A stretch of 64,000 bases of DNA from Fistulifera solaris (taxonomy: Eukaryota > Bacillariophyta > Bacillariophyceae > Naviculales > Stauroneidaceae), in assembly GCA_030295235.1 (NCBI GenBank), contig AP026146.1:620001-684000 (forward strand). The letters run 5' to 3'. The position numbers and the translations under genes were made by a program. Shown here one piece after another: positions 3,602-59,422 of this stretch (the stretch's first letter is position 1; each line of letters begins with the position of its first letter). The notes under the pieces were generated by a model. It saw only the letters and a program-made list of their open reading frames with translations, ran no database searches and had not been told where the DNA came from.

Positions 3602-4960
3602 TTAAACGGGCTGCAGGCTTATCAATCCAACCAAGCGTTCCTCCGTGATCATGAGCTGTCGAAGTCTAGCATAGTCCCCCAGAATAAGTGCTCCGATGAT
3701 AGTTGCCCACGACATCACCATCAACGACAGCAGAATAATCAAGGCCGCATTTTGAGACACATTCATCTTCTTGCTAACGGCATTGGTAGTTCGTTGGGCA
3801 TACGGAGCCAGAGCAATAGCTCCGAACACCTTGGGGATTTTTATAAATTGAGCGGCCACGTATAGGGACGCAAAGACACGGGCAAACTTGCGCACCAAGA
3901 TCATGGTGAGTGACGAGGAGGTGACCAGTGGATCAACGGGGGCTATTCGCTGCCACTGCCAAGCCATGCCGGTTGTGTAAAATAAAAGATTGAACAAGCA
4001 GTAGGACAGAACGCCAGCGCGACCTTTCCGTTTCAGCATTGAGTATTGACGTTTTGCGATTCGTCGAAATCTTCGAAATGAAAACGACTCGAGCGGCATG
4101 CTGTTCGGAAAGAACAGTAACTCATCTTTTCGTTGGATGGGTCTAACTGATTGATCCTTGAGCTGTTGTTCGATCTTGGCAAGGACTTCATCTCGAGGCC
4201 GTGTGGACCGTATTTCGGGGGCAACAACTCTTTGCGCTTCGTCAACTGCAATGGCAGCCTCCAGCTGACTCCTCCTTTCACGCCGGCGCAGATTCCATGC
4301 ATTTTTCCACCATGCTTGTTGTTGCCTCTTTGGTCGCAGTTCTCGCTTCAGCTGCAAGGAAAGGCCGCGAGGAAAGCAAACCGCGCTCCAGCCTGACCTT
4401 TCAAAGATGTCAATATATTCCTTTGTTTGTTCCCCCGTAATCGGTCTCAACAAGACTATTGTAACGTCTTTGGGTAGCCTATGTAAGGCAGCCAGCGATA
4501 ATACTTCCACCATGGCTTGTAAGCTTTCGTTATTGCCCGCGTCTTCCAAGTCTATTGTCAAATTGCCGATACACAAAGGGACCTCTTTAATGTCGTACTC
4601 TTCATCAATCGTCAAGCGAAGATCATCTACGGTGTACAGGGGAAGATAGTTCTCCTTCTTTTGATAGACATATGTTTCTACAACTGCATGAAATAGCGTC
4701 CTTGTTCGAAAGGGTAAGTTACGTCCCCGTTGAGGCAAAAAGTCGAGCAAAGAGAAATGTTTCGTTTCTTCCACAATATTCAAAAAGTCGGAACTCTCCA
4801 TGGCCCTGAAAGGAAGGAAGGTAGAAGTTCGACGTCCGTTTCCACCGTGTAACATCAAATGCGAAGTCAGGCGTGAACCTCGTTGAGACACCAAGGCAAT
4901 TGCGAGTGTTGAAAAACAATGAAGCCAACCAACGGCTTTTAGCATCTTGGAGAATCGCAT
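3602..4960 (-). CDS. conserved multi-pass membrane protein, probably plastid
   Basis: The gene is an intact 452-aa ORF. A hydrophobic N-terminus (WLHCFSTLAIALV) is followed by a soluble region of about 270 residues rich in Arg/Lys/Gln. The C-terminal third has several membrane segments: GVLSYCLFNLLFYTTGMAW, a stretch around FASLYVAAQFIKIPKVFGAIALAP, and ALIILLSLMVMSWATIIGALIL. The pattern KxGRAGVLxYxLFN...KVFGAIALAP recalls plastid and cyanobacterial DUF1279/FAM210-like membrane proteins, but I cannot confirm membership by eye. Function unknown. It converges with the PhyH-like gene (158 bp between stops) and diverges from the sugar kinase. Confidence 0.7.
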   Translation of the reverse strand: MRFSKMLKAVGWLHCFSTLAIALVSQRGSRLTSHLMLHGGNGRRTSTFLPFRAMESSDFLNIVEETKHFSLLDFLPQRGRNLPFRTRTLFHAVVETYVYQKKENYLPLYTVDDLRLTIDEEYDIKEVPLCIGNLTIDLEDAGNNESLQAMVEVLSLAALHRLPKDVTIVLLRPITGEQTKEYIDIFERSGWSAVCFPRGLSLQLKRELRPKRQQQAWWKNAWNLRRRERRSQLEAAIAVDEAQRVVAPEIRSTRPRDEVLAKIEQQLKDQSVRPIQRKDELLFFPNSMPLESFSFRRFRRIAKRQYSMLKRKGRAGVLSYCLFNLLFYTTGMAWQWQRIAPVDPLVTSSSLTMILVRKFARVFASLYVAAQFIKIPKVFGAIALAPYAQRTTNAVSKKMNVSQNAALIILLSLMVMSWATIIGALILGDYARLRQLMITEERLVGLISLQPV

Positions 4961-5481: not shown

Positions 5482-6693
5482 ATGAAGCTTACTCCTTGGA
5501 TGACCATGACAACAGGATCCACAATAATCGTTGGCCTCAATAGTGCTCTTCAAAAGAGATTCATTCTTCCTCCCGATGGTCAGTTAGTGCCCGGAAATGT
5601 ACACAGAGCCCGTTCCGTGCAGCTCGGCGTAGGAGGAAAAGGACAAGATGTGGCGATCACTTTGACGTGTTTACAGTATAGTGGAAGCGTAAAATTGGCG
5701 CAGTTTGTGGGAAGTGGTGCCGAAGGAGACGCGGTGTACCGAATGATGGTCGATCTCATGGGAGAAGATTCGATGCAACTGACGGTACGCCCCGCCGGAA
5801 GCATGCGGACGTGTACGAGTATTGTAGCTGCGAATAGCACAACGGAATTGGTAGAACCAAGTGACTTGATAGAGGAGTCGGAAGTGGCGGAATTGTTGTC
5901 AAAGCTGTCGGCCGAAAAGGCCTCGGCGCTTTGTTTCTCGGGAAGTATGCCGCCCGGATGCCCGACTGATACGTACGCCAACATATATAATATTGTAGCG
6001 GGTGACCATACCATCTGTTTGATCGATACTGTCGTGGGCTTACCTGAACTTTTGCGAGCCATCTCGTTGAAACAAAGACACGGACAAACCATGCTGAAAA
6101 TTAACGCCTCCGAACTTTGTCGACTGGCCGGTGTGGAAACCACAGGAGCCGAGACGAACGGAATATCTTCGCCGGAAATAATGACTGCTATCAAAACATT
6201 TCTTTGTCAGCACAAACCTTATGCACAACAGGCGCTGAGTGCCATTGCTATCACCGACGGAGCACACCCAGCATATCTAGCTACAATGCCCGTCGCCGCC
6301 GAAAATGAATTTCGAATATTCCAGATACCGGTTACCAACTTACTGACCGAGAAGAGGCCATTGCCGTGGGAAACCTGGAGCAGAGGAAGCTCGACGACAT
6401 TGTATCCAATTGGAGCTGGGGACGCTGTTGCAGCCGGAACACTAGCGGCTTGGAAATATTTGAGCAGTGATGAACGGCATCCTTCGTCTCTTCCACATGA
6501 ATTAAGCGCTGTTCTCAAGGATGATAGAGTCCCTTCCACACGCGCACTGTTGTCGGCGTTTTCTTTCGGGTTAGCGTGTGGAACAGCCAGCTGCCTCCAA
6601 GAACAAAATTCAGTGCTGAAGCCTCAGGATGTGTTACATTTCTTCAACCGGGGAGGTCGTCCCGCATTCCTGGCATGTGATGTAATATGCTAG
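5482..6693 (+). CDS. PfkB-family carbohydrate kinase (1-phosphofructokinase/tagatose-6-phosphate kinase-like)
   Basis: The protein is an intact 403-aa ribokinase-fold sugar kinase that transfers phosphate from ATP to a sugar or sugar phosphate. The first PfkB signature region contains GVGGKGQDVA (about residues 49-58). The second holds the anion hole and catalytic Asp in PIGAGDAVAAG (Asp about residue 314). LNSALQKRFILP resembles the hexose-phosphate kinase branch (FruK/LacC), so a phosphorylated hexose is a reasonable guess. No clear targeting peptide is seen; the start may be the first Met or the one at residue 7 or 9. No introns or breaks. Confidence 0.85.
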   Translation: MKLTPWMTMTTGSTIIVGLNSALQKRFILPPDGQLVPGNVHRARSVQLGVGGKGQDVAITLTCLQYSGSVKLAQFVGSGAEGDAVYRMMVDLMGEDSMQLTVRPAGSMRTCTSIVAANSTTELVEPSDLIEESEVAELLSKLSAEKASALCFSGSMPPGCPTDTYANIYNIVAGDHTICLIDTVVGLPELLRAISLKQRHGQTMLKINASELCRLAGVETTGAETNGISSPEIMTAIKTFLCQHKPYAQQALSAIAITDGAHPAYLATMPVAAENEFRIFQIPVTNLLTEKRPLPWETWSRGSSTTLYPIGAGDAVAAGTLAAWKYLSSDERHPSSLPHELSAVLKDDRVPSTRALLSAFSFGLACGTASCLQEQNSVLKPQDVLHFFNRGGRPAFLACDVIC

Positions 6694-17671: not shown

Positions 17672-18477
17672 AGCAGCAGCAAAGGACTCTCGAAAGCCGG
17701 TCAAGTTTTCTTCGGAGGCCTTTGTGTCGGCACATTGGCTTGGGAACATGGCAAACGCAACGCTACTTTGAAAAGATTCGTCTCATGGAAGAACGACAGA
17801 GTGATTTACAGAAAGCACCTACTGAAACATTCAACATACAAGAAATACAACAGCAAACGAACAACTTTTGTCAACTGCAGCTTCAAGGACGTTACGATCA
17901 CCGACACGAATTTCTAGTTGGGCCGCGCGGTCCTCCTCCCGGTGCTTTGCCCGATACGGCTGGAGGAGGAGGAATCAGTTCAGCACCGCAGGGGTACTTT
18001 GTTATGACACCTTTCATACTAAAGAAAACAGGAGAAACGGTCTTAGTCAATCGAGGATGGGTCCCACGGGCCATGGTGGTACCCGACCGGCGGCAGTCTT
18101 CGTCAAACGCTTCGAGAAGTGATTTGTTGCAATGGGATCGTCCGGACACGGTTACGGACTTGGTAGTGGTTCCGGCTCGTGCCGAAACACCCAAATCGTT
18201 GTTGGTCGCACAACACGACTTTCAAGCGCAACCTCCACGACTCTTTTGGTACGATCAAGTAGCCATGCAAGCCGCAGCCGGTCTCCCCTTGCAACCACCT
18301 TCCTTAATTGTCACGGCGATACAAAACAAAAATCAATCTTCTTTGCCCTTACGACCGCCCGTCGAGCATGTGGGAGATTTCAAAGTTACACCCGCTATCC
18401 ATGTTGGTTATGCCGCCACGTGGTACGGTTTGTCGTTGGCGGGTGTGTACATGACGCGGATGCTTCTTCGGAGATGA
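17672..18477 (+). CDS. SURF1: SURF1-like cytochrome c oxidase assembly factor
   Basis: SURF1 proteins assist assembly of cytochrome c oxidase in the mitochondrial inner membrane. Family hallmarks are the first membrane helix ending in GLGTWQTQRYFEK, the central LVNRGWVPR, and the second helix after HVGYAATWYGLSLAG. One base is missing near the GG at 17737-17738; restoring it joins VFFGGLCVGTL to GLGTWQTQR, giving 268 aa. The linker is rich in Ser/Pro/Gln. A start at 17588 would add 28 residues. It converges with the next gene (132 bp between stops). Confidence 0.87.
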
Positions 18478-19663: not shown

Positions 19664-19672
19664 CAAGAAAAA
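19664..19672. repeat. target-site duplication, left copy
   Basis: The 9-bp CAAGAAAAA immediately precedes the left terminal inverted repeat, and the same 9 bp follow the right one at 25537-25545. A 9-bp duplication is typical of Mutator-like insertions. Confidence 0.9.
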
Positions 19673-19803
19673 GGGGAGACTTCCGTTAGGTCTCCAACCA
19701 GGGTGAACCTCTTCCGATAGCTCTCCCGTTAGGAGAGACGTTAACTGACTACATTCAACTTTACAGTAGAGTACGCGCCATTGGATGTGGTACTAATTAC
19801 TTA
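19673..19803 (+). repeat. MULE left terminal inverted repeat (131 bp)
   Basis: Begins GGGGAGACTTCCGTTAGG and ends GTGGTACTAATTACTTA. It matches the reverse complement of 25406-25536 over all 131 bases as read. It contains internal short inverted pieces such as CTCCCGTTAGGAGAG. Confidence 0.95.
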
Positions 19804-19973
19804 AAGGCCTTCCATCCATCATTAGTTCTACTTAGGTCACGCACAATAACCGCACAATCGTTCGCGTTGTGCGTTTGTTCCGTTCCGACTGCCGACAAGA
19901 TGATCAGAACGCTGCATTCCTTATTGTCATAGTTGCCCTTCCGTTCCTACTGTTGCTCTTTTACAACATTAAC

Positions 19974-21890
19974 ATGTCGATCATTGAAACGAAGGGCGAC
20001 GATCATTCGTCACGATTATGCAAAAATATGGGGCACTTCCTCCAACCGGTCCGTATGATTTTGAAAAGTTTCTCTATGACAAACCGATCCCTGAGGATGA
20101 TCACGAGGAGCTTCTCCGCAGCATCGCTTTTGTGTAATGCGATCGAAAGCTCTTACGAGATGTCAGCAAGCACGGAGAAAGCCCTTGCTACGTGTGCACT
20201 TGCTGCAAAACGTTCTCACTTAAGTTCAAGGAAGAAAACGGCGAACTTCGATTGCTACGACCATCCTAGTACTAACTTCAGGCACAGTTTGTTTTGCACT
20301 CCAACAAACGACCTCCCAAAGGACTGCCGCAGAAAATCAATGATAGTGCAGAACATTCCTGCTGTTCAAGACTTCTTCAAAACATGCTTCCAGGCACCAA
20401 ACTTCGACAGTCATGCTACTCGCAAGAATCTCAACGCCGTCCTCAGGAAAGAGGGTTTCGACATCGAAGTTGGCCCGACAATGCATTCAAATCTCAAGAA
20501 ACACTTCCGTGAGGTCTACCCGAAAGGATTTGTTGATGTACAATGAGCTGTTGGCCCAGTATCTTCGGAAATATGTCGAGCTAAATCCAAATGCCTCCGT
20601 CAATTTAGAAACTGACCAGAACTCATGCTTTTTTCGGTCAACTGTGTTCATTGAGAATGCCGCGCACTTCTTTAGAAATGCCTGCATTCCTGCAATCTTT
20701 TAGACGGAACACACATCCGTATACCCGAACACGATGGAATTGGAGTCCCGATCATAGGGGTCGATGGAAATGGAAGTAACATTCCACTTGGTTTTGGGTT
20801 GATTCCCTCGGAAAACAAGCAAGGGATGATATATATCCTTCTCATGATGTATCAAGCTGGGTTCAATTTCGAAGAGTTTCCAGTATTCACTGACCGAGGA
20901 CACATTCTAGCCGCTGTCCGAGCGTTGGCAGAACATTATGGACTGGTTGTTTCCGTGAAGTATTGCTTGATTCATATTCTTCAAACATTTACCATCTATT
21001 CAATATCAATCAACGATCGGCGAGAGGGCAGAGCGGTCGGCTTGGTTTATCGCGCGCGAGATGCAAAGCGCTCCAGATGTTAACGCCTTCTTGGATGCTG
21101 CGAAGAAGCTTGTCAAAGCGCTTCCACAAATTGAAGAAAACGAAACTCTTAGTACCGGTGCGCTGAATTGTTATCTATGTTCTTGGGACAATTCATCCTA
21201 CTCATTGGACTGTGTTTGGAAATACACCGAGTCAACATGAATCTATGTGGGAGCCCCTATATTTTACCTATCTAGCTGAAGTGAATGGCTTCACAGAGAT
21301 AAGTGGAGACGTCGACGAATGGAGGTGGTTGCTCAACGATCACGTGCCAGTTGGAAACAAGTTCCCTTTATATGGTTTCTGTTCAACAAATCATGTCGAA
21401 TCGGCCCAGCAGTGGCTTCTACATCATGAAGTGAGGACTAATACCCCTCCACTAGCCATTTCTAACTTTTTGATGGCGGCTGCCGAATCTCTTCGACAAT
21501 TTCGAGATGAAATAACAACCAAATCTGCTAGGTTCCTCACCATATACTTTCGAAGCTTGCAAGATACAGGCAATGAAGATCTAGATTTTGTAATAGAGGA
21601 TGCTGAAGGATGCCCGATGGCAGTTTGAAATTCAAATTATGCAGCTGAAAAGCACAAGAAGACGGAGTATGTTACTTATGAACCCACGAGCACTCCGTCC
21701 CTGTACTGCTCCTGCAGTAGAACAGCGATGCGGGAAATCTACTGCGGCCACATCAACCTTGTTTCACGTACAAGATCCTCAACTTGGCCCTCAATCCCAC
21801 CCTCTGTGTTTTCGCAATTCTCACGAAGAGTTTGGAAAAGTTCCGACAAGTGGTGATCGTCAGCTTCCTTACAGAGTTTCTTAACAACTA
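19974..21890 (+). CDS. MULE transposase with SWIM zinc finger (frame-broken)
   Basis: Transposase of the MuDR/MULE class. From left to right: an N-terminal region with a Cys cluster (CYVCTCCKTF), a helical region (MIVQNIPAVQDFF to ELNPNASVNLETDQNSC), the catalytic segment with LDGTHIRIPEHDG (Asp codon near 20703), VDGNGSNIPLGFGLIPSEN, VFTDRGHILAAVRALAEHYG, HWTVFGNTP, STNHVESAQQWLLHHEVR, and a SWIM finger with CxC near 21707 and CxH near 21742. Several single-base breaks interrupt the frame, among them the A5 run at 20022-20026, near 20528, the T4 run at 20698-20701, around 20985-21010, near 21175 and near 21640. Start and end are approximate. Confidence 0.8.
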
Positions 21891-22326
21891 TCCGCTGACT
21901 TGACGTCCCGGGATTTGGGGATATCAAGCTTGCTTATCAATCAGAAAACATTTATCCATCACCAACTTACACTGACAAGCTTAACTCGGGGGAACAGAAT
22001 AATCAGTAATGGTGAACCGGGACCACGTAAGTCAAAGAAAAAGAAGCAATCGGGCGCTGGAATCAGCACGAATGACAAAGGAGTATGAGCCAAGTTCAAA
22101 GAACAAGCTCAGTCGAAATAACGATGCAATAGCAGAAGCGATTGCCGCCCGATGGTCTGTTTGATTTTGGGACCAAACCAAAGGCGAACACATGCAACAG
22201 CTAGAATCAACTCTTGGAGTATAGCGTAGAGGCGGCAAGCCCTTACCTCGGCACTGCTTTCACTGCAGATCACCGAATCACACAATTCGACAGTGTCTGG
22301 ACTACCTCAAAGATGATCGAAGGTAC

Positions 22327-25038
22327 ATGGATCCTGCATTACTTGAAACTGGCGCAATTCTGGTCAACCATTTCCCAACATGCGTCATTGACATGGATGC
22401 AGGAATTACTTCTGAAGATTTGGACAACGATGATACCTCCGGAGGACATGGCCTTCACAATATTGACAAGATTGGCTTAGTAGAAGACTCTGATGCAGCC
22501 AATGCCATTGTCCAGTCACGGATTTTAAAGCTTACTGGAGAAGACGCTGCAGAAATTCACGCTGAAGACGACAACGAAAATAACTATCTTCTGGATATGG
22601 ACCTTGCTCCGTCAGGTAGTAACCGAGATATTGTAGTAATTATTCGTGACAAGGATTACACGGAAAGAAGAAGTCACGAACAAGAATTGACCATGGTTGA
22701 TGATGTCGAGGTAGGCATCCATGACGATTCCCGTCTGAACAGTGCACACTCGGGTCATCTGTCGACAATTCTAGAGGATGAAGATGTGGAACCAAGCACC
22801 GCACATAATGCTTTTGCCTCAAGTCCCGCAACAACAGAATATTCAGTAAATGAAATGCCAACAACTAGAACAAAGAGGAGATCCAAACAAGCTTGAATTT
22901 AAAAGCGCAGAAGGCAAGTCCATCTACCGCAAAGTCATCGATATTGAAGACAGCGACCGCATCCAGACCGAATTTGAAACCACCGCCGACCACAACAGCT
23001 TGTGCTTCCAGTCCAGCAACAACAGATTTTTCATTAGTCAAAATGGCAACGAGAAAGAGGAAACGGCCGAAACAGCCACCAAATCAAAAAGCTGAAGGAA
23101 CAAGTCCCGCCACAACTGATTCGTCAATCTTTGAGAGGCCGACCATGAAGAGTCAAAATCTGAAGCCACCACCTGATATCAGAGCTCATGCCTTGACTAT
23201 CGAGTCTTCAATGAATGAGAATACAACACAAAAAAGGAAAAGATCGAAACTGACAGCAAATTCCAGAGCCAAAGGCCCGACTCATGCCCGTAAAAAAGAA
23301 GTTGAAACCGCCACCGATTGCAGAAGCAAAAGCAGGAAGTCCCGCCACAGCAGTTTCTTCCATAGTTGAGATGCCAACTATGAAGAGGGGTAATCTGAGA
23401 GCACTGCCAAGATCTCATTCAAACAGTCCAACAACCGAAGTATCACGATTCCTGAAGATATGATTATAAAGATACCGAAGACAGAACCCACTAATGCAAG
23501 TCCCGCCACGTCTGCTAGTGACGATTCATCACATGTATTTAAAAGGCGATTAGACATCCAAAAGAAGAATGCAAGTCCCGCCAAATCCGGTAATCTCAGT
23601 GACGATTCGTCGCATTTCCTGAAAATGCCGCTAGATCTGCGAAGAAAGAACTTGGCACAAAATGAAGCTCTCAAGTTCATTTTCAGTGGGTATTCCGAAA
23701 ACCAGAAGAACTCGTAGAGCTATAACAAGTCCCGCTACTGCCACTAGTGGGACCTCATCACAATTCTTGAGAACACCCTTCGACCTGAGACGTAAGATTG
23801 TAGATCCCAGAAATGAAAATCAATTTTCATTACGTCGACAACAAGTAAGGCAAATTGGAGTAGCCCCTTTGCAACCCCCAGTCATTACTGATGAACCATC
23901 AAAGATCGTATCCTATTTTTTACGACACAGCTTATCCATTTGTGGGAACCATTGAGCAATTAAATTGTTTGGTTCAAGAACACGAGTTTGATATTCCAGA
24001 ATCATTTCACGGAAAACGGAAACAAATGATTTAACGATGAAAAGAAGGGCTTCAACCCGGCAGCAAGGGCGCAAACCAGCGAGGACTTGTGAGTGAGAAC
24101 AATATTGCAATCCACGTGCGCGGAATACTCTTGCAGAGACAGCAAAAGGAAAGAAGTGGAATAGAATCATTTATCACTGTAGGGACAAGAAAGAATGGAA
24201 ACGATCTGATTTACAACAAAGAAGATGCCAGGGGATCTCTTCGGTCACTCCTTTTTGCAATCCAGTGCAAAGGGCGTTGATAAAGGTCGCGAGTCGTCAC
24301 GACCTGAAGAGGGAAAGAAGCATCATATCAAGGTGCTAGAGTGGTGCCACGGCATCCATAACCAGTGAATGCCTTGAAATTATGAACTCGCAATGTTATT
24401 TCAATGACGATTGTGAACAGTTTCCTTGAAAGCATAACAAGCAAGACCGTGAACGGATGAGGGAGTTATTGCACACCCGTCGTATGTCATGAGTAATCTG
24501 TGGGATTCCGCCAACCAAAATATTAAGAGAGAGGGTAGACTGCAGCTTAGTTCAGCGTTTGTGGCATTGAATTCTATGACAAAATCGAACAATTTGGGCA
24601 TTCATTTATTCCCTATGTGCAAGGAGAGGCACTGGTGGTTGATGGTGGTTGATGCCGATAATCGAGTTATTTATTCGCTCGACTCCCTCGAAGATCCGGA
24701 CGATCACTACTCTAATGCTGTCTGGCTTTCAGGTTTATTTAAATTCGCGTGCGGTGAGGCAGCAATTAGAATGCGCGTCAACAAGCGAGCAGCAGGAATC
24801 AACATTACCCGATTTCGCTCCGTGGGAATACCAAGAAATGCGTCTTCCCAATAAACTATTGCAACATGATGGCCATAGTTGCGGACCATATGTATGTTTT
24901 TATGCGGCGACAATTCTGAAACATGGTCGACGTGCCCTCAATGAGAGGACATGGTTCCTTGACTCTATTTCGGAGATTGGAGTCGGAGATGATCTCCGAC
25001 CTTTTGTATTTGATGTTATGTTTCAATTGGCTGAATGA
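22327..25038 (+). CDS. transposon accessory protein: acidic region, SPAT repeats, C-terminal ULP1-like protease (frame-broken)
   Basis: Second coding region of the MULE; I treat it as one gene although this is not proven. An acidic N-terminal part (IDMDAGITSEDLDNDD) is followed by at least seven copies of a motif around SPAT, each trailed by Ser pairs and basic clusters such as RKRKRPKQ and KRKRSK. The C-terminal segment from about 24489 is a ULP1/C48 protease-like domain: RHWWLMVVDADNRVIYSLDS supplies the catalytic His and Asp, and LQHDGHSCGPYVCFY the oxyanion Gln and catalytic Cys. Frame shifts occur near 22890, 23370-23460, 23690, 23930-24480 and 24740-24800. ULP1 enzymes process or remove SUMO; here the target is unknown. 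Confidence 0.65.
22821..23760 (+). repeat. degenerate SPAT-coding repeats in the MULE
   Basis: The core (A)AGTCCCGCCAC recurs near 22821, 23009 (diverged), 23101, 23335, 23497, 23571 and 23726. At protein level each copy is SPAT or similar followed by a 25-60 residue spacer. The last three copies share DDSSH(V/F)F or TSSQF and then D(L/I)(R/Q)(R/K)K. Confidence 0.7.
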
Positions 25039-25157
25039 CACGTATAGAGTAATGTGTGATATTAATCAACCAAGTCTAGTTTGAAACTGAAATTGTGTAG
25101 ATTGGGTTTTGATTATTTACACGAAGTAGTTTTCGACGAAAGCCTTGATCGGTGGAA

Positions 25158-25300
25158 GGTCACGTAGGCTGGGTTTTTTCTTTATTGGAAGGTCGCGCTC
25201 GCTGCATCAGGGTCACGTGAGGCTGGTTTTTCTTTATTGACAATTGAGAGCGGTCGCGCTCGCTGACTTTTCTTTATCAAGAGCGGTCGCGCTCGCTGAC
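25158..25300 (+). repeat. subterminal repeats of the MULE right end
   Basis: GGTCACGT(G)AGGCTGG followed by TTTTTCTTTATTG occurs twice (near 25158 and 25211). GGTCGCGCTCGCTG occurs three times (near 25191, 25252 and 25285), the last two inside the longer unit GAGCGGTCGCGCTCGCTGAC. GAGCG-GTCGCGCTC can fold on itself. Such arrays often bind transposase. Confidence 0.7.
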
Positions 25301-25405
25301 TATTGTTTATTGAGGATTTGGTTATCTTAGAGGGGTGATTCATGAATCATCCGGGACTGTCATTCATAAGGCTTTGTTACTTTATCGAGCAACCTAAGTA
25401 GATTC

Positions 25406-25536
25406 TAAGTAATTAGTACCACATCCAATGGCGCGTACTCTACTGTAAAGTTGAATGTAGTCAGTTAACGTCTCTCCTAACGGGAGAGCTATCGGAAGAG
25501 GTTCACCCTGGTTGGAGACCTAACGGAAGTCTCCCC
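25406..25536 (-). repeat. MULE right terminal inverted repeat (131 bp)
   Basis: Reverse complement of the left repeat at 19673-19803, with no difference seen by eye over 131 bases. Confidence 0.95.
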
Positions 25537-25545
25537 CAAGAAAAA
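25537..25545. repeat. target-site duplication, right copy
   Basis: CAAGAAAAA, the same nine bases as at 19664-19672, directly after the right inverted repeat. Confidence 0.9.
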
Positions 25546-25826: not shown

Positions 25827-28800
25827 CTAATAGTTTTCACGACTGGTATCGACTGCTCGCAACGACCGCTCGTAAAAGTCGAGATGTGAGTACATCTCTT
25901 CACCAGCTGCTTTGAGCAAACTCTTGGCGTTCAGCGGCGATGGGCTTACGTGTGCGGGACTTTTTGCTGGTGCACGTGCTGGTGATCCGTTAGTGTTCAT
26001 GGACATGTGCTTTTTCTTGGCGGCAATGCGTTCTCTGAAACGCTGCTTGACGCCATCTAGTTTCTCCTTATTAATACCACCACCAGCTAGACTGCCCGTA
26101 TTCGCAGGGTGCGCTGGGTTGGCTTTTGCTCCGTAAGATTTCTCATCAGTGCCACAGAGCGCCCTTTCCCCGATAGGAAATGTGCGGACGAGGGATCGGA
26201 TTGAAGCTCCATTAGCTTTTGTCGTAAATCATCGAGCTCTCGTTGCCTCTCCTTCTCTGCCATTCTAGCTTCTTCTTTCACTGCTAGTGCTTCACGAGCT
26301 GCTAACTCCGCCCTGATTTCGGCTCTCCTTGCACGGCGGGCCCATTTCTGTTTCTCAATCATATTTTGCTCTTCCCAATATTGCGAATCGTTATCGGAGT
26401 AGTGAGAACTCTCGTAGGATACTATGGACGAGGTACCAGCGCAAGATTCGGATTCAATTTTCACCAATAAAGCTTGGTACCGATTTACAAGCTGCTGTAT
26501 GCGGTCGCGGACAAGGGAAAACGCCTGTTCGGCCTGAACGAGCTTCTTTGAAATAGTTTTAACTTCTTCCATAGCAGTCAAGTATTCCATTTCGGCATCC
26601 GTCATTGTATCAAATCCCATGTTGTCACCTTCCGTATGCAAAAGGTATTCCGCGGCAATCTGCTTTTTAGTTGCGTTGTTCAGTTTGTTCCGTAGTTTCT
26701 ATTGTAAAGTCAAGGCAAGGAAAGGCAAAGATTAGCTGCAAAGCGACCAGGAGACGAGAAAAATTCTAGCATTGCAGTGGTTCGACATACCTCGCATTGC
26801 TCATTCGTAAGTTTTAACAAAATACTCTGGCAATCACCAATGGTAAACATTTCAAATCCTCTCATGTGACGACCACCAAGTGACGGACACCGGTATTGCA
26901 TAAAGTCTGTATCATCTACCCAGTTCACGGGTTCCCATGTGTATCTCCGACTCGACATGGAACACACGTTGGCAATGGGACGGCGAATGAAGTAGGTACT
27001 TTCGGCGCGGCGGGTCAAAACAGCCGCGTTGCGAATATCTCTCGGGACAACACCGTCTCGCCACGCCTTGCTTACAATACATGCATCTCTGACACGCAAG
27101 CCTTCTCGATGATACGGCGTGGTCACAATATCATCTACTACAGTCGTGCCACCACGGCGCTCAAGTCCTCTTTCAATGTCTTTTTCCATGATACGGCTAC
27201 GCATTTCAAAGAGAGCGAAGGCTTTGTTTTCATCATTAACCTTTTCCAATTCAGCAAGCGACGCAGTTTGTTCGGCTTGTTGTGATAGACGTCGATACCG
27301 CCGAACGAGCTTTTTCATGGAATTCGGAGGAATGTAGTACTCCGATAAATCACCTATATAGTCTACTTCGCCAGCATACGGATTTGTAAACAAAGACGAC
27401 TCTTCGTCGCTAGAAAAGCGAGAAATCTCGGCTGCTGACCGCGCCGGGGTAATAGTTCGAGGCGTCCCATTAAAGTTCCCTTGAATACCGTGCAACGAAC
27501 TATCGGTTGCCTTGCGTCCCTTGGCCACCATTTCGTGAAAACTCGGTACATGAGCAAAGCCATTGTGATCTATATCACTGTTGGTGAGCTGGTCATCGTA
27601 GTCACTGGCTGTTTTTCGATTCAGGAACCCGTCGGCGGATGTTTGAATCGCCGTCAATCCTCCGCCCAAAGAGATAATGCTAAAATCGTTGGTTTCTTCC
27701 ACATCTTCGGCAATGCTGATAGGATATTGTTTTCGAAAAAGGGGGACTCGGTACGAATGTCAAATTCCTCTGCGACGCCGTCAAATACATCCGTCTCTAA
27801 ATCCGATCCAGTAGCCACTGTTCTACGCCAAGCGTTTGAAACAGCCGAAGTTGCTTTTGATGAAGTATCCGATTCCATATTATCGGCCAAGCAGGGCACT
27901 TCGTGTGTCTTGTCAATGAGTCCCAAGTATCCCGGAAATGTTCTTACTGGTGGCTCCATACGATTGTTGGCTTCTAAAAGTTCTTTCGTGGGGGCGATCA
28001 ATTGTTTGGAGGGAAAGAGTGATTGTGATTGACTTGTTTGGCGATTTGCCAAAGGATCCTTCCAGTCAGGACGGCTCATACTCGTGCCATCTTCGATCGG
28101 AAATGGGGAAAAGAAGGTTGGTTGGGAATGTGGATCGAACGACGAAATCGCCAGCAATTCATTTTCATTCATATAAGCCGATGACGTCGTGGACGAAACC
28201 GGAGACGCTGGTGGTTTATTCCGCGGTGCCAATTGTGACGGTGCTATTTTCCGGGTGTTACTCATCGTCGTGTAAGAACGCACCGGTTGGGGCGAGGAAT
28301 TCCTTGTGCTCACAACAACATCTGACACTTCACTGGGATTGCTGCTGTCATCGTACGATTTGACACGTCCCCGCGAATCTTGTGTCCCCGGCCATCCGAC
28401 ATGGCCACTGCTACTACTCGTGGTAGGAGACGTCGTGCGCTTTTCTTCGACCACCGTTCGATGATGATTCCCAAACAACAGGGCCAAGCGAGCGATCCGG
28501 CCGGGCGGTGCAGTTTCCGAGGGCGCATTCGAATTTCTCGGCGTCGGTCTCCGTTGTTTGGTTTGTTGCGCTCGCGCCGTCAAGGATGATACCAGATTGT
28601 TTTCTGTTTTCTTCTCCTCGATGGTGGGACTGTCCAGTAAAGCATCCCACGAGGCCTCTTTGTTGTTGTTGTGTAAAGCAGATTTGTTGGATTTGGAATA
28701 CGCCGGAAGGAATTGTAATGCACCGTTGGAAGAAGGATTCAATTCTTGTGTACTTGTGTGAGTAGTAAATCGATGGGATTGCGTCGTTCGTTGCGATACT

Positions 28801-37958: not shown

Positions 37959-39576
37959 ATGATGTTCCGCAATCTTGTTTTCCTTGCTTCGGTCGGCGCG
38001 GCCTCTTCGATGGATGTCTATACCGCAATGATCATGCCTCTTTCCAGCAACTATACAGCTGAAGGAACAATGGTGGTGATGGTCGAAGAGGGAAGCACCT
38101 CTATCTTCTACGGAGGCCATGTGATGGGTTTGGAATCTTCTTTGGACGCGACGATGTGCACAGCAATGAACGGTTGTGGGTAAGCAGGCTCTCGTTCATA
38201 CATACTTTTCACAGTCAACAATGGAATCACTCTAACACATTTGAAGTCTTCACATTCATGTGGGTATGTCATGTGAGAGCGTCGAAACTCAGGGCGGTCA
38301 CCTTTACGAGACAGATGAGGACCCGTGGTTGGAAGCGCGTCACTCTACGACTGCAGATGGTGTGCTCATTGAGGGCACTTGGCTCGAGATCGGCACTAAC
38401 GAAGTTAACGGTAGAGTTGTGATCGGTACGTGTCCATGATATCATTTATTTTGCCACATAACTCGCAATGACTAACAATAATTAATCAATTTACATCTGA
38501 AGTTCACAATGAGGCTGGAGAAAGAGCTGGATGCGGTATCTTGCAACCTGTCATGGAAAGTATGACTCAACTGTCGGCTATGACAAGTCCCCTCGGAGAC
38601 GATAGCATGGCCGAAGCGGAAACCTTTGTTGCGGGGGGATGATATGTTCTTGTGCTATGCTGGGGTGGCCCGTGGACTCGAGGCAAATGTCATGAGTTTC
38701 ATGAGTGAAGGCGGCATGGATTGTAATGTCGCCAACGGCTGTGGCACCCATATGCATCAAGGCACATCGTGCGAGAACCTCGATACTCAGGGTGGACACT
38801 GGTACGAAACGGAGGAAGACCCTTGGTTGATGGAGGGCTATCTTTCTACCACAGCGGATGGCATGGCTTACTTTGGAAATTGCCTTATGGTTGGGTCTGC
38901 TACATCCATGGCTGAAGGCAGACCTTTTATTGTTCATGATTCGATGGGGAACCGTGTCAGCTGCGGTATCCTGGAAGCACGGGATGCGATGGGCGAAGCT
39001 CCTTCTCCGTCGATCGGAATGGAACCTACGATGATGCAGCCTTCTATGATGGACCCGACCGTGATGCAACCTTCCATGATGAACCCGACCATGATGGATC
39101 CCACGATGATGGACCCTACCATGATGGATCCAACGATGATGCAGCCTTCTATGATGGACCCGACCATGATGGATCCCACGATGATGCAGCCTTCTATGAT
39201 GGACCCTACCATGATGGATCCCACGATGATGCAGCCTTCTATGATGGACCCTACCATGATGGATCCCACGATGATGCAGCCTTCTATGATGGACCCTACC
39301 ATGATGGATCCCACGATGATGCAGCCTTCTATGATGGACCCGACCATGATGGATCCCACGATGATGCAGCCTTCTATGAAGGACCCGACCATGATGGATC
39401 CTACGATGATGCAGCCTTCTATGATGGACCCGACCATGATGGATCCTACGATGATGCAGCCTTCTATGATGGACCCTACCATGACGGACCCTACCATGGG
39501 ATCCTCTTCTTCGTCTTGGCTCTCTACATTGCTCCAAACCATGGTGCTTCTCATTGTCGTTGTTGTCTACATTTAA
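37959..39576 (+). CDS. secreted protein with two Cu/Zn-SOD-like domains and a Met-rich repeat tail
   Basis: About 490 aa. A signal peptide (FRNLVFLASVGAASS) precedes two SOD-like domains. Each has a Cys-bounded HxH motif (GLHIHVGMSC; GTHMHQGTSC), then QGGH, a TADG loop, and an (I/V)VH...R..CGIL end, matching the copper-ligand His residues and disulfide Cys of Cu/Zn-SOD. Then come about 32 pentapeptides of the types MMDPT and MMQPS, a Ser-rich stretch, and a C-terminal hydrophobic helix (TMVLLIVVVVYI) for a membrane or GPI anchor. Introns: 38180-38246 (67 bp) and 38426-38502 (77 bp). The G6 run at 38633-38638 has one base too many; with repair all phases close. Copper handling at the cell surface is inference. 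Confidence 0.75.
39016..39500 (+). repeat. 45-bp minisatellite encoding Met-rich pentapeptides
   Basis: The regular unit encodes MMDPTMMDPTMMQPS and is repeated about eight times, with a more irregular 5' part. Copies differ mainly by CCG/CCT and CCC/CCT codon changes and rare Met to Lys or Thr changes. Because ATGATG dominates, the antisense strand is also open in two frames. Confidence 0.9.
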
Positions 39577-39757
39577 GAGTATTTTGAACTGGTTAACATT
39601 GGACTGGAATAACAATCACGAATACATACAATCTAGAGATAGTTTCGTTCAAGAAGAAGAGACGACAGAAATCGACTCGGTCCTCAAGAGAATACGTTAA
39701 CTTCGAAAAACAGGTATCACATCGAAGCGGGTATACACACACCCAGAAATAGTAGCG

Positions 39758-44926: not shown

Positions 44927-46155
44927 TTATGCGATCATGGTAGCTACGGTAACGCCAGTTCCACCCACCATTAAGGCTCCTGCTACTCCAACAGCAAAAG
45001 GTTTCCAACCAACGCCGCGAAAAGAAGAAGCAGAAGTTCCCAAGCCCACTCCAGCCATTGCGGTACCGAGCAAATATTTGGACAAATCATTCCCTAACCA
45101 GTCCATAGCTACAGTAAAGTAGTGTTGTGAAGCCGTCGCTTCTACCAAGAGTAAATCGCCAGTCGATCGCACAGTTGACATGCCTAAGAATGTGAGAAGA
45201 AAGGGCGGTACATATTTTTTGTAAATGTCATGAGTCCCGACATAGTTGGGGGCGATGTCGAAGAATCGGACGCATTTGGAGACGATCTTGCATTCGGCGT
45301 TTCTTCTTTTGTTGCTGCACAACATGTACATAGGACAAAACGGGAATTGCTACTGCCAAACCCAAGTTACGTAACAATTTCGTGACAGCCGCAACTTGAA
45401 ACGCAACATCATCTCCGTAAATCTCCTTATAGGCCAACGCCGATCCCAACACTTGACTGGTATCGTGAATAGCAACACCCAGACACATTCCCACTTGTGC
45501 ACTATTCCCATCACACAATGCATGTAGCAAATACGGATAATATAACATGCCAAAAGTGCCAAAGAGGACGGTATTGGCTACTGCTTCGGCAATATCTCGG
45601 GACGGTGCCTGTATGGCCGGTGCCAGGGACCGTAATGGCCGTGACACCGCAAATGGATGTCCCCGCCGTCAACAATAAAGTCAACGAAGAGGATGACAGT
45701 CCCGCCCAATAACGGCCCGCGAAAGGAATAAAGAGCATCCCCGCACCCACGGACGACACCACGACCGGAATACTTTGCGAACTGGTTGCCAGTACTTGAC
45801 CGCAACTCAGTTTCGCGGCGACACAAACAATGCCCGTTTGTAAAAGAGTTTTGGTGCAAAACGTCAAACCCGGTTGAATGGTAGCGGTATGATGATGATC
45901 GGGGGTATGTTGTATTTCACAATCATCCCGAGTAATATGGAAGTCGGTATGCCCGAAATGGGCATGTCCCAGATAGACGAAAGAACGGATGTCATTTGAA
46001 AACCACCCAAGGCGGTGGAAGCACATAAAGCGACACCGGGAAATATCGATGGATGGCTCTTTTTCGCTGTTCTGATTGTCGTTCGATGGTGTAGCGAAGG
46101 AGGTGTCACGGCTGTCATCCAGCGAAGACGAACAGTTGGTGTTCGAGCGGTCCAT
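44927..46155 (-). CDS. YeiH/UPF0324-type putative sulfate-exporter-like membrane protein
   Basis: About 409 aa. The UPF0324 signatures are present: SIFPGVALCASTALGGF and ILLGMIVKYN near the start, TFCTKTLLQTGIVCVAAKLS, TAGTSICGVTAI, GVAIHDTSQVLGSALAYKE, KLLRNLGLAVAIPVL, and KKYVPPFLLTFLGMS with a GVGLGTSASSF C-terminal helix. A hydrophilic Ser/Asn-rich N-terminus and a linker before KKYVPP are extra. Five single-base breaks (T5 46060-46064, G5 45901-45905, near 45627, near 45318, T6 45215-45220 on the + strand) are needed; together they close the frame exactly. The transported ion is unknown. The family is mainly bacterial. Stops are 77 bp from ClpX. Confidence 0.75.
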
Positions 46156-46483
46156 CGTTTGTGCTGACGCAAAGAAGAAGGTATTGTGAAGCTGAAGCGA
46201 AGGAATATTGATTGCTGTATCATCTTGAAAGAAGCGAATGAATTGGGAAGGGCAAAGCACAAGCGCCGAGAAATAAGAATAAAAGATACTGTTTTTTTTT
46301 TTGTCTTGCGCTTTGTTTGTTTTACCAGTACCAGTACTACGTACAAGCGTGCGAGATCGATATATATCCGGGTTATCTCTGCACATGTGGGGTGATAGGA
46401 ACGGGCCTAAACCTAACTTACGAGAGCTACGTGACAAAACACTGCGCATACAACAACAAATATTTCTTCTGAATAAAAGCAAC
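46156..46483. promoter_or_regulatory. short divergent intergenic region
   Basis: 328 bp separate the YeiH-type (-) and MED21 (+) starts. It contains a CCAGTACCAGTACTACG run near 46326 and a long T tract near 46292-46302. Confidence 0.4.
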
Positions 46484-47347
46484 ATGAATGACAGTAACCA
46501 TCAAAGCAATATCAATATCATTAGCAGCAACAGCAACAGCAATGTCTCGGATGACGATTTCTCCATTGAGAACGACGAACCTTTGGATAAAATCGATCCC
46601 ATTACCGTTTTGCAAGACAATATAGGTCCGTCAGTTGGTGATTGTTGTGAAAGAGTATATTCTGTGTTTTGTTTCTTTCTTTCTTTCTTTCATTCAACTG
46701 TGAACTTTTTTTTGCTTTCTTGTTGGCAATCATCAATTCCTTGTACACTTCTCTCATACTCCACCAACGAATCCAACAACAACAACAACAACAACAAAAT
46801 ACTCACACATATACACAGACGGGCTGTCGTTGGCCATGTTTGATGCATTGCGCCAATTGAGAGATGCTGTAGCTCCCGAATCGGGAAATTTAGGAAATAC
46901 CAACAATAACAACCGAAATGATGACACAGAACACGCACTCGATACCGATGAATTGTGGAAGGCCTACAAAGCCAAAGATCCCGATGTTCTCGCCATGGTA
47001 CCTAGTATGACCGGAATCAATTCACGAGAAGACTTTGAACGATGGCATGCCCAACACGAGATGGACAAGGATAAAGAATTAGTCACGCAACTAGCTGCCA
47101 TTGTACTAGAAAAAAGTCGAGCCATTGATCAGCAAGTGCAACACCATATTCCCGGGATGCACCGGACGCGTCCAGAGCAAAAGAGTACATGGCACAACTC
47201 GTACAAGAAAATGTACAAGTCGCGCGTGAATTGGAACAAACCTATGCACAGGCACGGCAACAACGGGATCGATGTCGAGCGTACATTCGAGAAAATACTT
47301 GTCGAGCTTTGGGAATCAAAGAAGATTCGGAAGCAGTGTTTTTATAA
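46484..47347 (+). CDS. Mediator complex subunit 21 (MED21/Srb7-like)
   Basis: Subunit of the Mediator middle module, a coactivator of RNA polymerase II. After a Ser/Asn-rich N-terminus, LSLAMFDALRQLRDAV starts the MED21 helix pair. A long helix follows: ELVTQLAAIVLEKSRAIDQQ, then HHIPGMHRTRPEQKEYM and LEQTYAQARQQRDRCRAYI. One base is missing in the A4 run at 47179-47182; repair replaces a basic frame by the expected coiled coil ending SEAVFL. The intron ends at 46818; its donor is either 46626 or 46638 (both keep phase), and it holds a CAA repeat. About 227 aa; an upstream ATG at 46385 is possible. Confidence 0.72.
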
Positions 47348-56553: not shown

Positions 56554-57414
56554 TCAGCCCCAATAATCTCCGTTTTCTGCTTGAACTAGAAACCGTGTGG
56601 GGTGCTCGACTGTAATTCGGTTTGTAGTGTGTTCCGCTTCGCCCCACAATTGGGCGGCCGCATTCATGGCATCATTGACCCATTTCTTTCTCATCCTGTT
56701 GTTGTCCTTGGCGCTTAGTGGTGGAAGGGATAGACGTCTGTATCGCATTGCTTTCTTTGGGTCTTTCAAGCAATGATTAAGAACAACTAGCAATTGCAAT
56801 GCCTCAAAATGCCATGGCTTCAAACCAATCGCACGTTCGGCCATCTCGGCGGCTCTCGGCAATTGATCCACCCCTTGGTGAAACAGTAGCATAGCTAATC
56901 GCGAATGAGGTTCGGCCCAACCAGGAAACTGCCGCGTCATTTCCTCCAGCATTGCTTCCTCGTCGACCAACCCCTCCGAGCATTCTTTCTGCATATGCAA
57001 CATGGCAGCCGCCGCATTCTTGTCCTTTTCCGTGGTCCACAGGTGCACCAGTTCATCCAGCGCATCGTCTGAGTTCTCTAGACTTTGTAATAGTTCTATT
57101 TCAAGTTCACGGAAGCTTCTCCCCGTGCTGGTGAGGAACATGTGTCGTGCTTTTGCTTCCGCAATAATTCCTTCTCGCAGGATGCTACTTTGTCGATCAA
57201 TGGCAAAGTATTCTTCAAGACGCATTCGAACGCGGTAGAGTTCATCCTGCTCGGCGTAATCTGGATCGCGATAAAAAAGAATGGAAGACGCACGAGCCGT
57301 CATTACTGGTGCCTCGAGAACTCTGGGGGTGAATGCCAGCGCTATCCCTATCTTTATGCACACGAAATAGAAGGCACGCAACCGAAACGCAATAGTGTTG
57401 TTTGTACAAATCAT
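56554..57414 (-). CDS. plastid-targeted helical-repeat (TPR-like) protein, paralog 1
   Basis: Intact 286-aa ORF from the Met at 57414. A signal peptide (FYFVCIKIGIALAFTPR) contains an Ala-Phe-Thr-Pro junction typical of diatom plastid proteins. The mature part has EGIIAEAKARHMFLTSTGRS, DDALDELVHLWTTEKDK, and TPR-like helices FPGWAEPHSRLAMLLFHQG and ERAIGLKPWHFEALQLLV. It shares these blocks with the neighbour at 58123-58946, so the two arose by tandem duplication. Function unknown; a plastid protein-interaction role is likely. Confidence 0.72.
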   Translation of the reverse strand: MICTNNTIAFRLRAFYFVCIKIGIALAFTPRVLEAPVMTARASSILFYRDPDYAEQDELYRVRMRLEEYFAIDRQSSILREGIIAEAKARHMFLTSTGRSFRELEIELLQSLENSDDALDELVHLWTTEKDKNAAAAMLHMQKECSEGLVDEEAMLEEMTRQFPGWAEPHSRLAMLLFHQGVDQLPRAAEMAERAIGLKPWHFEALQLLVVLNHCLKDPKKAMRYRRLSLPPLSAKDNNRMRKKWVNDAMNAAAQLWGEAEHTTNRITVEHPTRFLVQAENGDYWG

Positions 57415-58122
57415 GGTGTTCTTGCTCGTTGTTGTGTAAACCGTCTTGGGAACTCGCTTTGACAGAAAAAGAAAAAGAAGAAGAATCGGTTGACACACTG
57501 CGAAAGATTGATTGGGTCGATCATCTCGATCGACAGAACAAAAAAACCATCCAATGCCTCTTATAAGAATTCTGCCGATCTAGCGTTCACGAAAGATCGG
57601 AACCCTTTGGCGATGTGACGGGTGATGGACAGTACACTGTCGTAGATGTCGTACGGAAACCACTCTTGTTCCCCAGTGTGATGGTGCGTCATTGGAGTAC
57701 ATTTTCATCGTATAGTAGGATGCACCACTTCAACTGACCATCTGGCGCAGCCGGTCGGCAGAAAAAGACACGAACTGGATTCCATCGAACAGAAACGAAT
57801 ATCACCACGGCATCGGAATCGGACGTTCCTTTGCTAGAGATAGATAGCATCTACCCCTCTAGTAGTCAATGAATCCGTCCCGAGAGCATCAATGAAGACT
57901 TTAACAAAGGTTAGGAAAGGTATGCTGGTAGAATGGTAGACTAAATACTTTGTAATATAGTGAGGACTTGTCACGGGTCACAGTCAACTAAAAATCTTTA
58001 TCAAAGTGTTTCGATTCATCGACTGCAAAGAACTATGATATGTACGGTGAAAGAAGATCAGCGGATAGGTTAACATACATTGCCAAGAGGTCTCAATTCA
58101 TCATTTTTGATAAGCGTGGTAT
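57415..58122. other. intergenic region between tandem TPR paralogs
   Basis: No gene or repeat of the paralogs is seen here. It should hold the promoter of paralog 1 and the 3' UTR of paralog 2. Confidence 0.35.
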
Positions 58123-58946
58123 TTACTGCCAGCTGTCGTCCGATGTCTTGGTAAGCGTGACCGTACGTTTACTCGTTCCTTGCTTGATGGAGCTTGTTAT
58201 GCGTTCTGCTTCCTGAAAGCGCCCCTTCGCTTGCATCAGCGATCGTTTAACCCACTCCTTTCTATCTCTGTTTTTCGTTTCCGGGTCAAGAGGGGTAACG
58301 CCAAACTACTCCAATGCATCGATCCCTCCATGTCGTGAAAATTGGCGCTGATGGCCACCATTAAATGCAAGGCTTCAAAATGCCAAGGCTTCAAATCAAT
58401 CGCCCGGACTGCCATATCGGCAGCGATGGATCCATGCATAGGACCTCCTTTGTGGAATAAGACGGCAGCGAGACGAGCATGAGGTTCCGCCCATCCGGGG
58501 TGCTCCTCAATCAATTGCCACAGACGAGCTTCTTCAATTTCAAGACCCCTGGAGCAAGAGACATCCATGAACAACATGTCAGACGCCGCATCTTCGTCTC
58601 TTTCGGTGGTCCACAAATGCACCAGCTGGTCGATGGCGTCGTCGGAATCTTCTAAACTTTGGAGCAGTTGCATCTCGACCTCACGCATGCGACGTCCCGA
58701 AGTCGTTAGAAAGAGCTGATTTCGTTCCGCCTCGGCGATGAAACCCTCTCGAATGAAAGTATCATCGTGGGTATCGATGAGTCTTTCGAATCGAGCCCGA
58801 TTCCTTTCAATGTCATCACGATCGGATCGGGTGGAGTAAGCGAGGGCCGTCAGCGTCACACGAGAGGGAGAATGGCGAGGGACGGTGAAGGCGTCGACAA
58901 TGACCGTAGAGGCGGAAATGAGGAGAAGAAAGGAGCGGTATATCAT
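58123..58946 (-). CDS. plastid-targeted helical-repeat (TPR-like) protein, paralog 2
   Basis: About 274 aa. Signal peptide IYRSFLLLISASTVIVDAFTVP ends in a classical Ala-Phe plastid motif (shown in two parts: IYRSFLLLISASTVIV and DAFTVP). The mature part repeats the blocks of paralog 1: EGFIAEAERNQLFLTTSGRR, DDAIDQLVHLWTTERDE, HPGWAEPHARLAAVLFHKG and VRAIDLKPWHFEALHLMV. A base is missing in the T5 run at 58271-58275; repair replaces an early stop by RKEWVKRSLMQAKG and an end parallel to paralog 1. Confidence 0.75.
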
Positions 58947-59422
58947 GATGAAAAAGTTCGTCTGAGTTGTCAGATAAAGACGAGAAGAAATGGACGAAAT
59001 AAGGATTCGCGAAGATTTTTGTGTTTTCGAGTTGATGTTTTTTCTTTTGATGGTTTGATGTTGATGGCTGGGCATGGGCATGGGCATGGGCACGCACTTT
59101 GGCGTTTTCTTTCATCGAATGCGAAGAGTGGAGCCATCAAGTACATTTTACGCAACAGTGATTGGAAGAACCCTTTCTTTAGTATTGAAACGCGATTGAA
59201 ACGAGTGTCCGGTATTCATTGGACGCGCCGGTCGATCCGTTGGCTCGTGAATAAAGTCAGTTGGTGATTGATCGGGACTGAAGGACCCAAGACTTTGACG
59301 TTATTGGCTTGGTGAAGATTTTTTGTTTTCACGACCCGCGTCACTGCTGCGAAACAGTATTGCATTGCTTCGATCCTTTTCTTCGACTTGCACATGTTGC
59401 GCATTTCGTCTATGATTTCAGA
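58947..59422. promoter_or_regulatory. divergent intergenic region with GGGCAT repeat
   Basis: It separates paralog 2 (-) and the sorting nexin (+). A hexamer run of about four GGGCAT units lies near 59069-59092. No gene is seen. Confidence 0.4.

Follow-up and report, generated by a model that had tools for sequence, protein, structure and literature searches.

The question raised by this locus is whether a stretch framed by inverted repeats in the diatom Fistulifera solaris is a complete Mutator-like element (MULE), how recently it moved, and what it encodes. The element spans 5864 bp, at positions 19673-25536 of the window, i.e., the whole stretch of 64,000 bp that was analyzed (contig C35:620001-684000 of a 51.7-Mb, 61-contig assembly). 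Its terminal inverted repeats (TIRs), located at 19673-19803 (5' arm, plus strand) and 25406-25536 (3' arm, minus strand), have 131 nt each and are 100% complementary, and by sequence reading the same 9-mer, CAAGAAAAA, is present on the left (19664-19672) and right (25537-25545) sides. The boundaries reported in the first-pass annotation, namely, a 5864-bp element with identical 131-bp inverted ends and a perfect 9-bp target site duplication (TSD), are thus confirmed, with the refinement that the TIR that is invariant across the family measures 130 bp, starts with GGGAGAC, and begins at 19674 in the window copy. The outermost G/C of this copy is an additional base between TIR and duplication; such a base was seen at one or both ends in 5 of 22 copies, in one of which (L012) a 10-bp duplication is an equally possible reading. 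Inside the 3' end, two subterminal 33-bp repeats (AGAGCGGTCGCGCTCGCTGACT...) are found at 25247-25310 (plus strand), with degenerate neighbors upstream. Similar stretches occur at loci on contigs C15, C21, and C5, which have the subterminal stretch alone in common with the element; the pieces fetched from them revealed no pair of inverted repeats. Among frames of at least 250 amino acids, the element is preceded by a SURF1-family gene that ends at 18477 and followed by an unnamed frame (26710-27759), and Rfam and tRNA scans of the 64-kb window gave no matches.

A search of the genome with the TIR returned 48 candidates, and all of the 40 that were scored matched at 100%. Genome searches with internal segments retrieved at least 21 copies of the transposase segment and at least 24 copies of the Ulp1 segment described below. 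Together with 23 loci fetched from the assembly, the window copy gives a family of at least 24 copies: 20 full-length copies (5846-5873 bp), 3 copies of about 3.2 kb, and 1 copy with an altered right end (L017, C16:892504-900100). In the latter, the last ~280 bp differ and a diverged TIR-like sequence is seen at about 6200-6600, so that this copy is perhaps chimeric, with a part derived from an older element. The 23 two-ended copies all have identical TIRs over a length of 130 bp, and a 9-bp TSD was detected in 22 of these when at most one extra base per side was allowed and in 17 when none was allowed. Mispaired left and right 9-mers, with no extra base allowed, matched in 0 of 506 cases. That left and right 9-mers agree in 17 of 23 copies under this stricter rule, versus none of the mispaired controls, indicates that the duplications are not a product of chance. 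Among the 22 duplications, that of L018 is a poly-T run and that of L012 is ambiguous by one base. No TSD was found for L015, one flank of which resembles a tandem-repeat sequence present on many contigs, and a pairwise comparison of 47 flanks revealed no similarity at an E value of ≤1e-4. The first-pass annotation had considered that a lack of other copies, together with differing ends, would speak against its reading; neither was found.

The same annotation had suggested looking for an empty site. We searched with the joined flanks of 8 of 23 prepared insertions and scored 40 of 415 candidates, a sample in which misses carry no evidence. Matches spanning the junction were obtained for three of the eight insertions (window copy, L012, and L010). 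For the window insertion, a related site without the element is present on the paired contig C34 (84%; 80% over 460 columns). The empty site of L012 is on C8 (72%), and the L010 junction was matched at seven other places at 99-100%. Among the scored candidates, the joined flanks of L009, L011, and L014 matched their own halves alone, those of L013 matched their own halves and four partial right-flank sequences, and those of L015 matched their own halves and many repeats.

MULEs are characterized by TSDs of 8-11 bp, by long TIRs, which are absent in some members, by a SWIM or CCHC finger, which is common but not universal, and by the motif set LDGT, TDRG, YCxxH, and NxxES. The family studied has a 9-bp TSD in 22 of 23 two-ended copies, TIRs of 130-131 bp at 100%, and a putative transposase coding region at 20002-22350 (plus strand, approximate limits, split over frames). 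This region contains LDGTH at 20700-20714 with the first catalytic Asp, TDRGH at 20889-20903 with the second, the motif NHVESAQ with the Glu codon at 21398-21400, and a YCLIH motif. Sequence reading also revealed a SWIM-type zinc finger of the pattern CxC...CxH (CSC...CGH, 21707-21751, plus strand), which aligned with that of the related gene L044 (E=0.71 for the stretch alone), and a CCHC zinc knuckle, CFHCRSPNHTIRQC (22255-22296, plus strand), with a weak Pfam match (E=0.19). Segments of at least 30 residues share 26-55% identity with related proteins, and the MULE domain PF10551 was matched at E values of 4.7e-4 (21 bits) and 1.8e-4, at scores of 21 to 22.3 bits that are below the curated cutoff of 27.6. 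In a genome-wide PF10551 search, a relative on C2 alone was listed and the window family was not; this relative scored 27.8 bits with its neighbors, over the cutoff, and 25.5 bits in another scan. The Pfam SWIM profile exceeded its cutoff in L044 alone, and no relative of the C2 transposase was confirmed when viral contigs were scanned. We conclude that the element represents a variant of the MULEs rather than a new class.

All of the motifs assigned in the first-pass annotation to a MULE transposase (LDGTH, TDRGH, and SWIM) can thus be read, but the coding region of the window copy is divided among several frames, and in none of the 20 full copies do LDGTH, TDRGH, the Glu motif, and the SWIM finger share one frame. 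The description of a complete transposon is supported as far as the structure of the element is concerned. In one full copy (L016), LDGTH, TDRGH, and the Glu motif are in one frame, and in another (L020) a single 302-amino-acid frame holds the Glu motif and the SWIM finger. A TGA before the SWIM finger, in frame in the window copy and with its letters present in 20 of 20 copies and in L017, was considered as a common lesion and discarded, since the L020 frame shows that not every copy is read in the frame of this TGA. A T-run directly before the first catalytic Asp shifts the frame relative to the related families B and C in all 21 transposase-bearing copies. An intron at this point was rejected because homology to family B continues there without a gap. 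The shift may be a common lesion, a systematic undercall, or a site of recoding, so that the copies are candidate rather than demonstrated autonomous elements.

The element also carries a C48 (Ulp1/SENP-like) peptidase region, overlooked in the first-pass annotation, at 24357-25038 (plus strand, left limit approximate), with the predicted catalytic residues His (24630-24632), Asp (24681-24683), Gln (24862-24864), and Cys (24880-24882) kept. Individual pieces of the window matched PF02902 below its cutoff (E=7.6e-4 and 0.054), and the hand-joined reading reached an E value of 1e-7 and 32.5 bits (cutoff, 20.7). In one of the 23 two-ended copies (L028, 32.2 bits), a single frame contains both the His and the Cys motif, and the copy at C1:2433930-2434241 is over the cutoff and stop-free. 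Of the 24 copies, 2 appeared in the list of a genome-wide search with PF02902. Families B and C were absent from this list and were detected by their likeness to the Ulp1 region of the window (tblastn, 3e-16 and 3e-22). In an alignment of the three families, the His, Asp, Gln, and Cys residues are kept at 33 and 35% identity to the first sequence, and a profile of this alignment against solved structures retrieved SENP2, SENP1, and yeast Ulp1 in all of the 10 chains listed (best E=1.1e-5). Transposase and Ulp1 may be either one protein or two. The Pfam matches of the pieces scanned included no VANC-type domain. Further C48 matches were observed elsewhere: two neighboring ones with equal scores lie a short distance beyond the window (C35:614193-614456 and 615231-615494), with one at C34:595071-595331 on the paired contig, and others with internal stops and no transposase match nearby at C21:445425-446075 and C18:126819-127085.

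Family B is located on C2 (L042:4592-9021) and has a TIR of 264 bp at 98.9%; a 9-bp TSD was looked for and not found. Family C is located on C46 (about L046:3272-7557) and has a TIR of 238 columns at 95% and a TSD of 9-10 bp. TIR searches gave one full copy of each, and family C had three additional partial matches elsewhere. In both families, as in that of the window (family A), the Ulp1 region lies downstream of the transposase region on the same strand. Because three diverged families share this layout, the association of transposase and Ulp1 appears to be old in this host lineage. Another pair of MULE-like genes, on C38 and C39 (L044:3192-5888 and L045:3157-5406), has open frames of 899 and 750 amino acids. 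In this pair, the second Asp motif is altered in both members and the Glu motif in one, the SWIM finger is kept, and the dN/dS ratio is ~0.14 over 690 codons; no inverted repeats were found in the 9.6 kb around each gene. From these sequence features, the pair is likely a domesticated transposase.

Among known systems, maize MuDR/Mu resembles the family in its long TIRs, its 9-bp TSD, and its deletion derivatives mobilized in trans; the product of its second gene, mudrB, is not known to be a peptidase, whereas the window family has an Ulp1 region. The second ORF of MuDR is mudrB (PMC6446971). The diatom MULEs of group 37 of Dupeyron et al. 2019 (MULE-Diatoms) share with the window family a stramenopile host, a SWIM finger, and a TIR of similar length (123-124 bp versus 130 bp). 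As far as descriptions can be compared, they differ from it in having one ORF without other motifs and a TSD given as "No TSD and not indicated," whereas we found a 9-bp TSD and a C48/Ulp1 region; the text of that source contains none of the terms "ulp," "protease," and "peptidase" (PMC6446971). MULEs with a gene of this SUMO-protease-like kind are otherwise known mainly from plants. Ulp1-bearing MULEs of plants and the antisilencing activity of KIU have been described (PMC13317346). The KIU-carrying VANDAL/Kaonashi elements of Arabidopsis and the ULP1-MULEs of melon, rice, and grapevine are alike in having an Ulp1 domain beside a MULE transposase (PMC13317346, PMC2528002), and in melon and other ULP1-MULEs it has the orientation of the transposase (PMC2528002), as in the window family. 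In contrast, the Arabidopsis KI elements lack TIRs and carry Ulp1 in reverse, in a VANC-type gene (PMC13317346, PMC2528002), whereas the window family has TIRs and families A, B, and C have both regions on the same strand. Stramenopile Cryptons also include transposons with Ulp1-family C48 peptidases, but these are tyrosine-recombinase elements and not MULEs, and the source places the peptidases in oomycete elements (PMC3212892). Among the open-access papers searched, we found no description of a diatom MULE with Ulp1.

To the first reading, our analysis adds, besides the Ulp1 region, deletion derivatives and CpG-linked differences between copies. The three copies of about 3.2 kb (L013, L022, and L031) have one identical break at majority positions 405/3062 and lack the segment 406-3061, which corresponds approximately to 20078-22745 of the window. 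They have lost most of the transposase region, have kept both TIRs and the Ulp1 region, and are flanked by three different TSDs. The deletion would thus have arisen once and then moved with transposase supplied from elsewhere, since derivatives without most of the transposase region still spread.

The 20 full copies differ at 331 columns, which form 94 clusters. A CpG is found within 3 nt of 79 clusters, versus a mean of 34 and a maximum of 45 in 200 null placements. Of the remaining 15 clusters, 13 are homopolymer length changes, some beside a CpG, and two are not (columns 1323 and 4739-4740). In the majority sequence, 129 of 277 CpGs are affected, whereas, for each of 14 other dinucleotides, no more than 0-4 of the 106-266 occurrences distant from CpG vary. 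By region, affected CpGs amount to 0/12 in the TIRs, 8/23 in the 5' subterminal stretch, 16/20 in the 3' subterminal stretch, and 47/96, 41/91, and 17/35 in between. The 12 TIR CpGs represent 6 distinct contexts, and a hand estimate from per-context rates gives ~0.025 for their being unaffected, which is only suggestive of an exemption of the TIRs. The four-gamete test is violated by 902 of 1653 informative site pairs, unlike tree-like mutation. A comparison with host genes (27 of 29 ORFs; 31,265 bp with 2085 CpGs; ORF 38578-39615, with antisense overlap, and ORF 45511-46500 were dropped) is circular because the ORFs were chosen for being open. The differences fit miscalls of a presumed long-read platform at presumably methylated CpGs and at homopolymers rather than decay. 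Methylated motifs (Dcm, in a bacterium) and homopolymers have been reported to account for most nanopore consensus errors (PMC6591954), and CG methylation that targets transposons has been reported in diatoms (PMC9998398).

To estimate the age, we considered the 2415 columns that are not part of homopolymers and lie 6 nt or more from the nearest CpG, a choice that would miss real CpG changes. Only columns 1323 (C/G, 16:4) and 4739 (A/gap, 16:4) vary among them, and three further insertion columns vary (1992 and 3263, in one copy each, and 4740, in 7 copies). With 0-1 substitutions in 48,300 cells, the upper bound, calculated by hand, is ~0.6-1 x 10^-4 per site. Assuming the mutation rate reported for Phaeodactylum tricornutum, 4.77 x 10^-10 per generation (PMC6604790), the family spread within about 1-2 x 10^5 generations, as an upper bound. 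The family has thus spread very recently, in agreement with the recent movement and the possibly active family suggested in the first-pass annotation; this is supported by the copy number (at least 24), the identity of the ends, the independence of the 9-bp duplications, and the related site without an insertion.

Taken together, we consider it very probable that the element is a Mutator-like transposon of the DDE type, which moves by cut and paste, bears an Ulp1 region, and spread in a recent burst, and that its frame breaks are mainly basecalling errors. A TIR transposon of another superfamily would account for the 9-bp TSD, which by itself also fits other groups, but the probability of such an origin is negligible in view of the LDGT, TDRG, YCxxH, and NxxES motif set, the SWIM-type finger, and the long TIR. 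If the element were old and decayed and gene conversion had maintained the similarity of its ends, identical ends alongside broken frames in the window copy would be explained. The interiors, however, are near-identical outside CpG and homopolymer sites, for which reason we rejected interior decay with converted ends, and 22 of 23 copies have perfect duplications that differ from copy to copy; this reading, too, is barely credible. The CpG-linked differences could instead be real mutations, which might arise, for example, if a silenced element is damaged in a targeted manner and then repaired with errors, and the finding that a single site can have as many as 16 alleles in 20 copies would agree with this. 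We nevertheless judge it very unlikely, given that the differences are mostly indels and mixed substitutions, not C-to-T changes, that all four combinations occur in over half of the site pairs, and that nanopore errors at methylated motifs and homopolymers are a known pattern (PMC6591954, for bacterial Dcm motifs).

More weight is to be given to the possibility, which we hold to be genuine if rather doubtful, that all copies in the assembly are nonautonomous. In this case, the T-run shift would already have disrupted the transposase of the founder, and the copies would have been moved in trans, either by a source that is unseen or now lost or by a related family. Since the shift is common to all 21 transposase-bearing copies, the whole burst could be defective; moreover, it is identical in these copies and not at a CpG, the frame continues at this point in relatives B and C, and the deletion derivatives point to trans mobilization within the family. 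On the other hand, homopolymer lengths elsewhere in the element differ by one between copies, so that a systematic undercall is possible, as is ribosomal frameshifting at the T-run.

According to the recent-burst explanation that we favor, the transposase would bind the TIRs and move the element, and an intact source would also mobilize copies unable to make transposase. The Ulp1 product may help the element to persist, for instance, if it strips SUMO-type marks off chromatin or the transposase or if it counteracts silencing; by analogy with plant VANDAL/KIU, its role is perhaps antisilencing. The element body would be CpG methylated in the host, and the frame breaks of the window copy would be mainly basecalling errors at methylated CpGs and homopolymers. 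A more specific version appears unlikely to us, namely, that of a diatom MULE-Ulp1 lineage resembling VANDAL/KIU, in which Ulp1 would be an antisilencing factor, perhaps directed at the 33-bp repeats, that would keep the TIRs unmethylated while the body is methylated and would in this way have permitted a burst dating to the last ~10^5 generations. Against such TIR protection, the 3' subterminal stretch with the 33-bp repeats has 16 of 20 CpGs affected, like the body.

These data may be of use beyond this locus. A near-undiverged diatom family with deletion derivatives would suit transposition tagging and the observation of how a new invader is silenced, and the presence of Ulp1 in three diverged nonplant families would allow comparative tests of why MULEs keep this domain. 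The CpG-linked pattern implies that a transposon gene may appear inactive in a long-read assembly without necessarily being so, and it suggests a crude methylation readout from assemblies. As to the host, its genome contains 87 LHC/FCP-family matches, many of them in equal or near-equal pairs on neighboring-numbered contigs, which points to an algal host whose genome comprises two related subgenomes. For one such match, the closest solved chains carry names such as LHCI, ACPI, and FCPI, which we take to denote the red plastid lineage. For F. solaris, 42 chromosome pairs have been reported (PMC5935921). Two further features of the window were observed: an open frame at 38584-39576 is dominated by a repeat unit of the MMDPTMMQPS type, and two adjacent minus-strand frames at 56554-57579 and 58236-59111 look alike by eye, apparently as a result of tandem gene duplication.
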